Notes under the pieces: generated by a model | The model's input: the letters and a program-made list of their open reading frames with translations, nothing else | Databases searched by the model: none | What the model was told of the DNA's origin: nothing | Made by a program: the position numbers and the translations under genes | Part shown: positions 6,165 through 8,378 of the stretch, in pieces | Numbering within the stretch: position 1 is the stretch's first letter | Layout: each line of letters starts with the position of its first letter | Assembly (NCBI RefSeq): GCF_000278725.1 | Contig: NZ_ALCA01000129.1 | Span: 1-13,110, forward strand | Source of the DNA: Actinomyces sp. ICM47 | Lineage (GTDB): Bacteria; Actinomycetota; Actinomycetes; Actinomycetales; Actinomycetaceae | Reading direction: 5' to 3' | Length of the DNA: 13,110 bases

Positions 6165-6194
6165 TGGACAGCAAGCAGCCTGTGAAGGTAGCAT
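6165..6194 (+). promoter_or_regulatory. promoter of leader RNA copy 1
   Basis: TGGACA (6165-6170) and TAGCAT (6189-6194) are separated by 18 bp. Seven bases after the -10 the conserved GGTAACG of the leader begins at 6202. Copy 2 has the same 18-bp spacer and the same 7-base offset, which supports both as true promoters and fixes the likely RNA 5' end. Confidence 0.65.
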
Positions 6195-6201
6195 TGGAAT
6201 C

Positions 6202-6288
6202 GGTAACGGGGCTAGTGCTCAGAGTGCCACATCGAAAACCCACGCCCTCGCGGTGTGGGTTTCCGTCTATCTAGCCGAAGGAGGCCAG
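6202..6288 (+). ncRNA. structured leader RNA, copy 1 (upstream of DUF3800 remnant)
   Basis: Two hairpins precede a ribosome site and an ATG. Hairpin 1 (6202-6228) pairs GGTA with TGCC outside and GGGC with GCTC inside, leaving an asymmetric internal loop (ACG opposite AGAG). Hairpin 2 is an 11-bp stem, 6236-6246 with 6252-6262, closed on CTCGC. Copy 2 keeps GGTAACG, AGAGTGCC and the CCCAC/GTGGG stem ends, while the inner stem sequences differ yet still pair. That is what a conserved RNA structure shows. GAAGGAGG (6279-6284 region) then precedes ATG at 6289. Structured RNAs upstream of DUF3800 genes are known from comparative work (the DUF3800 RNA motifs); which of them this belongs to, if any, I cannot tell. 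The hairpin could also act as a terminator, but the tail is not T-rich. Confidence 0.72.
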
Positions 6289-6399
6289 ATGCTGGTTGCT
6301 TATCTCGACGAAGTTGCCGAGGCAGGAGCGACTGAGCCCCGAGGACCGGACCCGGATGGAAGAAGCGAAGGCTGGAATACTTGCAGTTGCTCGCGCTAG
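6289..6399 (+). pseudogene. N-terminal remnant of a DUF3800 gene
   Basis: The ATG follows a good ribosome site and the structured leader. The first codons read MLVAYLDEVAEAGA, matching the Y-x-DE start of DUF3800 proteins, usually well over 200 residues long. After about 14 codons the resemblance ends, and a stop follows at codon 37. From about 6332 another frame reads LSPEDRTRMEEAKAGILAV and so on, which looks like a piece of a different protein. The gene therefore seems to have been cut by a deletion or rearrangement just after its start. DUF3800 proteins have no well-settled function; an RNase H-like fold has been suggested. Confidence 0.55.
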
Positions 6400-6409
6400 T
6401 GGGCTATGA
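6332..6409 (+). pseudogene. fragment resembling the start of a helix-turn-helix protein
   Basis: This frame reads LSPEDRTRMEEAKAGILAV followed by ARASGL and a stop. It resembles the lead-in to a small helix-turn-helix domain (an acidic helix, then a VARxSGLS-type turn), but it ends before the recognition helix. It overlaps the end of the DUF3800 remnant in another frame, and I see no start or ribosome site of its own except the internal ATG at 6356. It is best read as a relic; the family assignment is weak. Confidence 0.25.
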
Positions 6410-6430
6410 CGCAGTAGTTCTCCGGTTCTC

Positions 6431-6546
6431 GGATAGGTTGCGAGTATGCGGATAGGTTACGAACATCCGGATAGGTTGCGAGCATACGGATAGCTTATTT
6501 TCCTATCCGCATGTGCATAACCTATCCATATGCGCACAACCTATCC
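6431..6546. repeat. symmetrical 19-bp repeat array (four direct, three inverted)
   Basis: GGATAGG occurs at 6431, 6450 and 6469, with the variant GGATAGC at 6488. The complement CCTATCC occurs at 6502, 6521 and 6540. Every step is exactly 19 bp, and opposite copies are mirror images about one point, 6498. The unit is GGATAGGTTGCGAGTATGC with changes mainly in its second half, where C-A-T is still kept. The two 45-bp arms (6450-6494 and 6502-6546) could form one long imperfect hairpin with an AT-rich tip. It lies 28 bp downstream of the sirtuin stop. It could be an operator array, an iteron-like site or a large terminator hairpin. Confidence 0.92.
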
Positions 6547-6574
6547 GCGTGTGAAGACTCGCGCGCGGCAACGC

Positions 6575-7330
6575 CTACGCGGGTACGACGCCCTCCGCGC
6601 GCAGCTCGTCCATGACGCGGTCGAGGGTCGCGCCCACGGGGTCGCGGACGATCAGGTCTGCGTGCGCGTCGGCCGAGGTCGGGGTGGCGTTCATGAGCAC
6701 CAGGTGATCCCCGGAAAAGTAGTTGATGAGGCCCGCGGCCGGGTAGACGACGAGGGATGTGCCGGCCACGATCAGCGTGGATGCCCGCGCAATGGCGGAC
6801 ACGGCGGCCTCGATGACTCCCTGGTCGAGGGATTCGCCGTACATGACGATGTCCGGGCGCATCTGCCCTCCGCACGACGGACACGCGGGCACTGGATCCC
6901 CGTCAACCTTGACAGCATCAATGAGCGCGACGACGGTCCCGCAGCGCGTGCACACGAGCCGTTCCCAGTTGCCGTGCAGCTCCCACACAGCGCGCGACCC
7001 GGCCCGCTGGTGCAGGCCGTCGATGTTCTGCGTAACGACGGCGTCGAGGCGACCCGCGGCTTCCAGAGCGGCCAGGGCCTTGTGTGCGCCGTTGGGTTCT
7101 ACCGGGCGGTACACCTCGCGGAACCACTCCCAGTACGCTTCGGGGTGCTTGGTGAAGAAGTCAATGCTCAGGACCGTCTCGAGGGGAATCTCGCGCTCCT
7201 GAAAGTAGAAGCCGTTCGCCCCGCGAAAATCGGGGATACCCGACTCGGTGGAGACGCCCGCGCCCCCGAAAAACACGGTGGACGGTGACTCCGCAATCCA
7301 ATCCGCCAGGGTCGAAACGTCGCTGTTCAT
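6575..7330 (-). CDS. Sir2 family NAD-dependent protein deacylase (sirtuin)
   Basis: This 251-residue cytoplasmic enzyme should remove acyl groups from lysines while consuming NAD and releasing nicotinamide and O-acyl-ADP-ribose. Visible signatures are GGAGVSTESGIPDFRG (22-37, NAD binding), TQNIDGLH (100-107), the catalytic His in HGN (H119), two zinc pairs C127/C130 and C150/C153, and GTSLVVYPAAGL (190-201). The GAGVSTESGIPDF form and the short length fit bacterial class U or related sirtuins. The ATG is preceded by GAGGAGG at 5-base spacing, and a possible -10, TATCCT, lies at 7365-7360. It sits between the NAD operons and the acetate operon; acetyl-phosphate from the latter is a known source of lysine acetylation, so the position fits its chemistry. 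No sign of damage. Confidence 0.95.
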   Translation of the reverse strand: MNSDVSTLADWIAESPSTVFFGGAGVSTESGIPDFRGANGFYFQEREIPLETVLSIDFFTKHPEAYWEWFREVYRPVEPNGAHKALAALEAAGRLDAVVTQNIDGLHQRAGSRAVWELHGNWERLVCTRCGTVVALIDAVKVDGDPVPACPSCGGQMRPDIVMYGESLDQGVIEAAVSAIARASTLIVAGTSLVVYPAAGLINYFSGDHLVLMNATPTSADAHADLIVRDPVGATLDRVMDELRAEGVVPA

Positions 7331-7361
7331 GAGGACCTCCTCGCTCGCGCTACCCTCCCAG

Positions 7362-7459
7362 GATACGCCCGAGGCCGGGGCACCACGTGGGGACCCCGGC
7401 CTCGTTGGCGCGAAAGAATCAGGCGAAGGTCAGCGCCTGGCGGGCGATCGCCAGCTCCT
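7362..7459. repeat. 98-bp direct repeat, copy A (displaced ackA tail plus terminator)
   Basis: This segment matches 8281-8378 at 89 of 98 positions without any gap. It contains, on the minus strand, the last dozen codons of ackA, its stop codon and the following hairpin (7371-7380 with 7394-7403), but no ackA body. Most mismatches lie in the few bases between stop codon and hairpin and in the loop. It marks the far end of the inserted DUF3800 unit. It is not a gene. Confidence 0.92.
7371..7403 (-). terminator. duplicate of the ackA terminator hairpin
   Basis: GAGGCCGGGG pairs perfectly with CCCCGGCCTC across a 13-base loop. It is the copy-A version of the ackA terminator and now lies downstream of the DUF3800 pseudogene and just upstream of the sirtuin promoter region. 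Confidence 0.6.
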
Positions 7460-7496
7460 GGGGCAAGCCTGCACGCGGCGAATGCACCGTCGGGCC

Positions 7497-8137
7497 TCAT
7501 GTTGCCGGTTTGCCTGTAGTGGGTGCACTTGCGCGGGCATGTACGAGCTGGAGGAGGGAGAGATTCTGGGGAGACATACCGGTTAGGGAATCGAGGTGGG
7601 GGCGTGCCCTGTCGAGAATCCGGATGTGGTGGATATTGCCGATGCTGCGTCGATAAAACTGGAGGGTGGATTCATACGTGAAACCTCCACGAAGATCAGC
7701 GAAAAAACTGTCTGCTACCCATCTGTACGAGCTGTTGAGTACCAACTGATAGTCACATGCTCTGCCGATGAGGGCTGCGACCCAGTCTGCGCACTGGATG
7801 TTTGTGGAGAGCTCCGAGTCAATATATGCGGGAGCTTCAAGGATGCGCAGCATCTCCTGATGTTCCTTGATGCGACTGTAGATGTGGGCATAGCTGCGTT
7901 TCACCTGGTGAAAGCGCTGCTTCTCATTGATCATGTCCTGAAAGAGGAGGATGTTCTGGTCCTCGTGTTCGGCATACCTGCAGAGTCGGTTGATCGCCTC
8001 ACTCAAACATTCAAGAGTTCTTTCCTCGCGTTTATTTTCCCAGTTGTTGTCGGTGTTCTTGCCCCACACCTGGCCTGGGGAGCCGATGGGTTTTTCACGT
8101 ACGAAGTAGAAGAGCTTTCCGCCGTACCTGTGAGCAT
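7497..8137 (-). pseudogene. DUF3800 family gene, N-terminally deleted and out of frame with its start
   Basis: The open frame ending at 7497 encodes a DUF3800-like C-terminal body. It starts with YGGKLFYFVREKPIG, contains ILLFQDMINEKQRFHQVKR and the family's acidic signature IDSELSTNIQCADWVAALI, and ends with a basic tail. The start that follows the leader RNA and its ribosome site (GAGGAG, then ATG at 8137) is not in this frame. Only ATGCT of the expected beginning remains, and the sequence then joins directly to the middle of the gene, so roughly 100 N-terminal codons including the Y-x-DE motif have been lost with a frameshift. The frame does stay open upstream to 8207, but those residues are simply the leader RNA read as protein. 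It is flanked by a 98-bp direct repeat. The body is otherwise free of stops, so the loss may be recent. Confidence 0.68.
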
Positions 8138-8233
8138 GTTTCTCCTCACTGAGAGACGCAAAGACCCACGGCGCAACGTGTGCGCCCGTGGGCCCGCGGA
8201 TTGGCACTCTGCGAGGACCTGCTCGCCGTTACC
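8138..8233 (-). ncRNA. structured leader RNA, copy 2 (upstream of DUF3800 pseudogene)
   Basis: On the minus strand hairpin 1 (8233-8203) again begins GGTAACG and ends AGAGTGCC. GGTA pairs with TGCC outside, while the inner stem is GCGAG with CTCGC, different in sequence from copy 1 but still paired. Hairpin 2 (8192-8165) pairs CCCACGG plus CGCA with TGCGCCGTGGG, with one bulged G. A GCGTCTCTC stretch, GAGGAG and ATG (8137) follow. Order, spacing and the conserved unpaired bases match copy 1. The 5' end is placed by a promoter 7 bases upstream. Confidence 0.72.
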
Positions 8234-8240
8234 ACTTCTG

Positions 8241-8270
8241 ATCGTAGTCGGTGTGTGGGTGGGAAGTCAA
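8241..8270 (-). promoter_or_regulatory. promoter of leader RNA copy 2
   Basis: TTGACT (8270-8265) and TACGAT (8246-8241) are 18 bp apart, and GGTAACG begins 7 bases after the -10. This repeats exactly the geometry seen at copy 1. The promoter lies just inside the flanking direct repeat, 11 bp from it. Confidence 0.68.
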
Positions 8271-8280
8271 CTACGCGACG

Positions 8281-8378
8281 GATACGCCCGAGGCCGGGGC
8301 TCCACGCGGGAACCCCGGCCTCGTGATGGCCTAAGAATCAGGCGAAGGTCAGCGCCTGGCGGGCGATCGCCAGCTCCT
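8281..8378. repeat. 98-bp direct repeat, copy B (functional ackA tail plus terminator)
   Basis: This is the partner of 7362-7459, 919 bp away. It covers the last codons of ackA, its stop and its terminator. Together the two copies bracket an 821-bp unit that holds only the promoter, leader RNA and DUF3800 pseudogene. Confidence 0.92.
8289..8323 (-). terminator. ackA terminator hairpin
   Basis: An 11-bp perfect stem (8289-8299 with 8313-8323, core GAGGCCGGGG) begins 14 bp after the ackA stop. There is no T tract, as is common for terminators in high-GC actinobacteria. Confidence 0.75.

Follow-up and report, generated by a model that had tools for sequence, protein, structure and literature searches.

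A structured small RNA before DUF3800 genes of Actinomyces sp. ICM47 and its relatives, a candidate trans-acting partner of an RNase HII-like protein

Earlier work described structured RNAs next to DUF3800 genes, without a known role. In type III toxin-antitoxin systems such as ToxIN, a structured RNA is followed by a terminator-like hairpin and then by a nuclease gene, the RNA antitoxin being made of tandem repeats, while IscB and TnpB are transposon-encoded RNA-guided nucleases of the RNase H superfamily with an adjacent noncoding RNA, omega RNA. Here we describe an RNA family of about 72 nucleotides (nt) that occurs twice in a 13,110-nt stretch of Actinomyces sp. ICM47 (contig NZ_ALCA01000129.1; "the window", to whose full length positions refer unless a locus is named), each copy standing before a broken DUF3800 gene. 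The family probably acts in trans, as the partner of a DUF3800 protein predicted to be RNase HII-like.

PMC10910872 calls RNAs beside DUF3800 genes putative noncoding RNAs, PMC11701678 names RF02969 DUF3800-I and RF02968 DUF3800-IX among the DUF3800 RNA motifs, and PMC10910872 and PMC12669027 describe DUF3800 as an RNase H-fold protein found in some loci of clustered regularly interspaced short palindromic repeats (CRISPR). The window family shares with the Rfam DUF3800 RNA motifs a conserved fold adjoining a DUF3800 gene; it also has a −10 box for the gene in part of its loci and orphan copies (RNAs without a gene). An initial annotation of the window had raised the possibility that the RNA is one of those motifs; by the criterion of the Rfam 15 models it is not (window and 54 other loci scanned). 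No DUF3800 RNA motif was found in the window at E ≤ 1, in the 34 genome loci scanned, out of 44, at gathering score, or in 20 plasmid, phage and viral-contig loci at E ≤ 0.5, and no Rfam family of any kind lay on the RNA above threshold in these sets. Set apart by the Rfam 15 models, and with a two-box layout in many loci, the family is a putative separate variant of the DUF3800 RNA motifs. At E ≤ 5, six weak matches of other families, all below gathering score, appeared on the leader of locus L012, mostly over the 3′ hairpin, and above-threshold Rfam matches elsewhere in the loci (tRNA, tmRNA, SAM-IV, C4, isrK) did not overlap the RNA.

By analogy with type III toxin-antitoxin systems, with which the family shares the order of RNA, terminator-like hairpin and nuclease gene, the RNA may restrain the protein. 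Unlike those systems, it has a single non-repetitive unit per leader, as seen by eye in the alignments, a separate gene promoter box in many loci and a protein modelled as RNase HII-like. It resembles IscB/TnpB in that a predicted RNase H-superfamily nuclease gene adjoins a noncoding RNA, but the fixed 5′ end, the lack of a visible variable guide stretch inside the aligned RNA and the RNase HII-like folds set it apart. A guide-RNA reading was set aside on the ground that no variable guide-like stretch was seen within the aligned 72-nt RNA, the sequence past the 3′ hairpin not having been studied as a guide. The DUF3800 accessory proteins of the class 2 CRISPR systems V-A2 and VI-F, as presented in PMC12669027 and PMC10910872, share the RNase H fold and the link to RNA; unlike in those systems, there is no Cas gene among the annotated neighbours of the plasmid and phage loci (L088 and L093 are unannotated there; CRISPR arrays and genome loci were not searched).

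The RNA family and its place before DUF3800 genes

Fifteen homologous proteins were aligned and a genome collection was scanned, giving 44 DUF3800 loci, nearly all with a recognisable relative of the window RNA upstream. A MAFFT alignment of 28 leaders, from which the window, its relatives L002-L004 and more divergent leaders were excluded, supports three paired elements: P1 (GGU.GC./.GCGCC with a bulged A), P2 (a variable stem with a UGAAAYAGU loop) and P3 (a hairpin of 12 base pairs (bp) with two outer pairs). In this alignment 93.5% of cells pair, against 83.4% when shuffled; double changes affect 16 of 25 pairs, double-changed cells number 80 compared with 19.9 in the shuffles, and slid versions of the fold pair at 37-57%. 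The unpaired UGAAAYAG loop and the AAUUCG linker are conserved, and the variable columns of the aligned 72-nt RNA fall mainly in paired P2 and P3 and in the P3 loop. The initial annotation had taken the paired differences between the two copies for evidence of a real RNA fold, and this covariation bears it out.

Model R1, built from the same 28 leaders and therefore with the window's clade left out, has the two copies as its two best matches in the window (32.1 bits, E 1.5e-6, plus strand; 22.0 bits, E 3.7e-4, minus strand; next match at E 0.1) and returns them at E 5.9e-5 and 0.015, respectively, in a search across 45 sources. Matches to the family are about 63-84 nt long, start with GGUA[G/A]C and end in a terminator-like hairpin. 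The proposed association with DUF3800 was likewise upheld, as R1 places the start of the RNA at most 170 nt from the gene in 40 of the 44 protein-found loci, 28 of these being its training set and the fair count 12 of 16. The four misses are L001 and L039, where the RNA lies further upstream and other DNA precedes the gene, L042, with a weak match (24.9 bits), and L044, a 39-residue fragment with none.

The family extends beyond chromosomes and beyond Actinomycetota. With R1, the RNA scores 71-74 bits on two actinobacterial plasmids, and a related upstream RNA is present at DUF3800 loci of Pseudomonadota plasmids, of the Aeromonas phage phiO18P and of uncultured phages. R1 scores 18-35 bits directly before the gene in 13 loci (L064-L066, L068, L069, L072, L073, L087-L089, L091, L093, L094), two of which repeat others, L073 coming from the phage of L068 and L093 sharing the leader of L066; the Pseudomonas loci L067, L090 and L092 give no upstream R1 match, yet the same hairpin is there in sequence. 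An alignment of 16 leaders, with L042 included and L073 left out, yields a common part, UUCCGAGGCCC..GGGCUUUCGUGUU, with double changes in 8 of 12 predicted pairs and no common 5′ stem predicted; the 3′ hairpin sequence and its flanks are alike in Actinomycetota and Pseudomonadota. Searches of plasmid and phage DNA with the window unit gave no match, nor did a motif-pattern search of viral contigs. As to setting, the RNA-DUF3800 pair of a Sphingomonas plasmid (L066, 721-3331) comes after a TIR gene of Thoeris type and a gene with a caspase domain, in a defence-like neighbourhood, and on a Pseudomonas plasmid (L067, 478-4567) DUF3800 and the hairpin lie between ParA/ParB and KfrB/KfrC genes.

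Promoter boxes, the DUF3800 protein and orphan RNAs

For 40 loci, −10 boxes were scored with a weight table and a cut-off of our own, the best hexamer being sought in the 20 nt before the RNA. In 38 of the 40, the end of this hexamer is 6-8 nt from the RNA (exactly 7 nt in 26), in agreement with the earlier proposal that the 5′ end is fixed relative to the promoter; a second set shows the RNA promoter box in 15 of 17 loci. Before the DUF3800 start codon, the best −10 hexamer ends at 5-7 nt in 27 of the 40, no other offset from 0 to 39 nt accounting for more than three. Between the end of the RNA and the start codon lie 11 to 86 nt, so this second box goes with the position of the start codon. 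A −10 box this close to a start codon is the layout of leaderless transcripts, and an mRNA begun from it would not carry the RNA. A −35 box, defined as at least four of six matches to TTGACA, accompanies 27 of 40 RNA promoters and one of 28 gene promoters, the background being 9.6%. From these positions, 32 of 53 scored loci seem to have the RNA and the gene as two distinct transcription units.

The proteins P0001, L066 and L068 match PF12686 at 53.8-64.2 bits, above the gathering score. The DUF3800 model has a predicted RNase HII fold, and its best-scoring solved folds are RNase HII-like. Over 40 sequences, D7 and E8 are at least 90% conserved and D172 and D222 invariant; these four are putative counterparts of the catalytic D, E, D and D of RNase HII. 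Other resources yielded little: PADLOC gave nothing for P0001 and L038 and one weak match (E 0.011) for L030, NCBIfam gave one match far below cutoff for P0001 and none for L038, and a PDB sequence search with DUF3800 found no match.

Searching by the RNA alone in the family of genome G001 matched 15 of 151 genomes. DUF3800 lies directly downstream in ten of the 15 loci (two of them partial), L085 keeps a few N-terminal DUF3800 codons, as judged by eye, and L075, L076, L081 and the doubtful L086 lack the gene. Three genera gave matches in 11 of 41, 3 of 9 and 3 of 11 genomes, and having been picked for holding an orphan RNA, they provide no fair rate of orphans; a class sample matched 2 of 296 genomes, one being the centre genome itself and the other false. 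All these rates are lower bounds, because the genome search scores only part of the candidates and R1 missed the RNA-bearing genomes G001 and G002. Pooling the four RNA searches leaves 30 distinct loci, of which 19 have DUF3800 (some partial or broken), two hold remnants seen by eye (L085, L134), one is doubtful (L086), one was judged a false RNA match (L141) and seven are without DUF3800 (L057, L075, L076, L081, L132, L135, L137). A DUF3800 profile search of the seven orphan genomes found no match in six; the seventh, G005, has one elsewhere in the genome. The orphan L132 and L133, in which the gene is intact, share about 1.1 kb upstream of the RNA at 88%, the gene having been lost or gained at one of the two. 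On reading, R1 matches at L058, L059 and L061 were rejected as terminator-like or tRNA, and L060 proved to be the reverse strand of L050 and no separate locus. Genome G517 has two RNA-DUF3800 units (L139, L140) about 37 kb apart with identical RNAs; one of the two units also has a further, third DUF3800 match on its upstream side.

A probable trans-acting partner and competing explanations

On balance we favour, with some confidence, an RNA family that would work in trans, with the RNase HII-like DUF3800 protein as its partner. The RNA would have its own promoter, mostly with a recognisable −35 box, in more than half of the scored loci, and there the DUF3800 mRNA would be leaderless, from a promoter with a −10 box only. 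The likeliest version is antitoxin-like, with the RNA restraining the DUF3800 nuclease; next comes a version in which the RNA is a ribonucleoprotein cofactor of DUF3800. Transcription, RNA-protein binding, inhibition or activation and the biological role are here inferred; what the sequences themselves show is the fold with its covariation, the association with DUF3800, the promoter-box positions, the model fold, the broken genes and the gene-less RNAs. Three things incline us to the antitoxin-like version: of the two promoters, that of the RNA looks the better; some RNAs stand next to broken genes; and orphans exist. Six of the 44 DUF3800 frames are short, that of L001 is cut from its start, and further cases occur among the RNA-first loci. 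The putative recognition of the RNA by the DUF3800 protein itself, which the initial annotation offered next to cis control, fits better than the latter.

A wider picture can be offered tentatively, as something short of probable: a two-component system common to Actinomycetota and Pseudomonadota, to plasmids of both and to some phages, where an RNA of about 70 nt, in many loci separately transcribed, would restrain or arm an RNase HII-like DUF3800 protein, and cells losing the nuclease would sometimes keep the RNA in the manner of an antidote. The two-box layout, the gene-less RNAs and the RNase HII-like model turn this into a testable question, namely whether a small RNA controls a nuclease in trans; with relatives in two phyla, plasmids and phages, the answer, if affirmative, could give plasmid and phage biology a new type of nuclease under RNA control.

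Several observations weigh against trans action. No gene −10 box is found in 13 of the 40 loci, ten of which have a Shine-Dalgarno-like site (L002, L003, L004, L006, L012, L013, L016, L031, L032, L033), the other three (L028, L036, L037) having neither; in 13 further loci, at least three of which (L071, L077, L078) look like repeats of first-set loci, the gene box appears in just five (L062, L063, L071, L074, L079) and is missing from eight. Where present, gene boxes without a −35 may be weak or unused, and a transcript shared by RNA and gene is likely in many loci, the window's clade included. On the protein side, the Foldseek result by itself is weak (best E 8.6e-3), the aligner's notes put the typical best Z at 7-8 for models without a clear match, and 37 of the 44 frames still reach 250 amino acids, one of them (L001) without its start, besides the six short frames and one that runs off its contig. 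As for RNAs outlasting genes, a 72-bp RNA is a smaller mutation target than a 900-bp gene, and some orphans look like relics, the −10 boxes of both L135 and L137 being poor and P3 of L137 damaged, as judged by eye.

Among the competing explanations, the cofactor version holds up best, unlikely as it is: the RNA would be a required scaffold or activator, and the nuclease, loaded with it, would be a small RNase HII-like effector directed at invading nucleic acid. The close pairing of RNA and gene, the 3′ hairpin and flanks alike in two phyla, the RNase H fold and CRISPR occurrence of DUF3800 in the cited sources and the one plasmid example adjoining TIR and caspase genes are consistent with such an effector; the lack of a visible variable guide-like stretch inside the RNA and its presence in six genomes without a DUF3800 profile match argue the other way. 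Slightly less probable again is a cis leader or attenuator through which the RNA would govern read-through into DUF3800 or its translation, with binding of the DUF3800 protein as a possible means. Its fixed place upstream of the gene, the terminator-like P3, the ten Shine-Dalgarno-like sites and the scarcity of gene boxes in the further loci suit this explanation, which is nevertheless weakened by the −10 box close to the start codon in 27 of 40 loci, a box that would leave the RNA off the mRNA, and by the existence of RNAs without a gene. The cis-acting control element proposed in the initial annotation accordingly fails as a general rule (gene box in 27/40 and 5/13 loci) and may hold for the window's own clade, where a shared transcript is possible because a Shine-Dalgarno site takes the place of the gene −10 box. 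That clade looks like a one-transcript type, as, by eye, do many Pseudomonadota examples; a pure cis leader fits it and not the 27. It is highly improbable that a conserved terminator and promoter surround a mobile gene and the RNA itself is functionless, for although P3 resembles an intrinsic terminator, an actinobacterial P3 weakly matches hairpins of other RNAs at a lax threshold and the unit is variably present at the ackA locus, P1 and P2 covary, the loop and linker are conserved while unpaired, the 5′ end keeps a set distance from the promoter in 38 of 40 loci and the hairpin flanks are conserved across phyla.

The window copies, their broken genes and the ackA locus

Copy 1 (6202-6267, plus strand, 66-nt type) and copy 2 (8233-8155, minus strand, 79-nt type) both begin with GGTAACG and continue with a 5′ hairpin, AGAGTGCC and a 3′ hairpin with CCCAC/GTGGG, 3′ of which come a ribosome site and ATGCT, as the initial annotation had described. 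The 5′ hairpin stem reads GGGC/GCTC in copy 1 and GCGAG/CTCGC in copy 2, corresponding to P2 (GGGC/GCUC and GCGAG/CUCGC), and P3 of copy 1 is AAACCCAC..GUGGGUUU. By eye, P1 of the window copies (GGUAAC/GAGUGCC) differs in step from that of other clades (GGUAGC/GAGCGCC); the energy fold pairs an adjacent A instead, unlike this by-eye P1. Folding z-scores against dinucleotide shuffles are −2.88 for copy 1 and −2.69 for copy 2, with 3 of 200 shuffles folding equally well in each case. Earlier given as 6202-6288 and 8233-8138, the copies keep these 5′ ends and lose the 3′ ends: the RNA proper stops near 6267 and 8155, and 6288 and 8138 mark the edge of the start codon, beyond the RNA. A counterpart of copy 1 occurs in L109 (2855-2920, minus strand) together with gene fragments, and close relatives of copy 2 in L099, L105 and L107.

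On the plus strand, a −35 box TGGACA (6165-6170) and a −10 box TAGCAT (6189-6194) precede copy 1 (TGGACA-18-TAGCAT-7-GG), and promoter scoring places TTGACT (8265-8270) and TACGAT (8241-8246) before copy 2 on the minus strand (TTGACT-18-TACGAT-7-GG), confirming for both the 18-bp spacer and the −10 box ending 7 bases before GGTAACG. Shine-Dalgarno-like sequences follow the RNAs at 6277-6284 (GAAGGAGG, plus strand) and 8142-8147 (GAGGAG, minus strand).

Both genes are broken, as had been claimed. Homologue comparison identifies 6289-6399 (plus strand) as the remnant of a DUF3800 start, MLVAYLDEVAEAG, followed by unrelated sequence; intact homologues begin M-L-[IL]-A-Y-[IL]-D-E, and about 13 recognisable codons are left before a stop after 36 amino acids. 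The gene of copy 2 (7497-8130, minus strand) matches PF12686 at 36.7 bits (gathering cutoff 21; E 8.6e-9) with 97% identity to a homologue of 317 amino acids, and lacks about 314 bp after codon 2, including the conserved DE motif. Its break, at 8130/8131, was located against the L002 gene, which keeps the full N-terminus, yet has a stop of its own after 175 codons; the frame from the copy 2 ATG (8137-8135) runs into a stop, and the rest of the gene is out of frame. Both window nucleases look dead, their RNAs and promoters surviving.

The 3′ end of ackA with its terminator (8280-8378) adjoins ackA and is single-copy in relatives without the unit; a second copy, 91% identical, lies at 7361-7459, and the two bracket the minus unit as a 99-bp direct repeat. 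Querying the window's genus with ackA matched 34 of 35 genomes, from which 30 loci were retrieved. The RNA stands 3′ of ackA in six (L099, L105, L107, L109, L110, L127), and in at least seven (L100-L104, L106, L108) a sirtuin gene directly follows ackA and its terminator. Like the window, L099 has a 98-99-bp copy of the ackA end on both sides of its unit; L109 has two convergent RNAs of the same two types as the window with DUF3800 fragments (2110-2920), its retrieved stretch containing no sirtuin match; and L108 lacks the first unit and shows a DUF3800 match past the sirtuin gene, at the place of the window's plus copy. Given these three loci and the unit-free ones, the unit is gained or lost as a block at ackA, and the plus copy probably represents a second, older unit.

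Units of about 19 bp, with CGGATAGGTTRCGA in three copies and then in inverted form, make up a palindromic array at 6430-6550 of the window. The Rfam matches MIR4380 and mir-5918 at 6448-6558 were sub-threshold matches to this array and were rejected; relatives of the array adjoin the sirtuin gene in L001 and L002.

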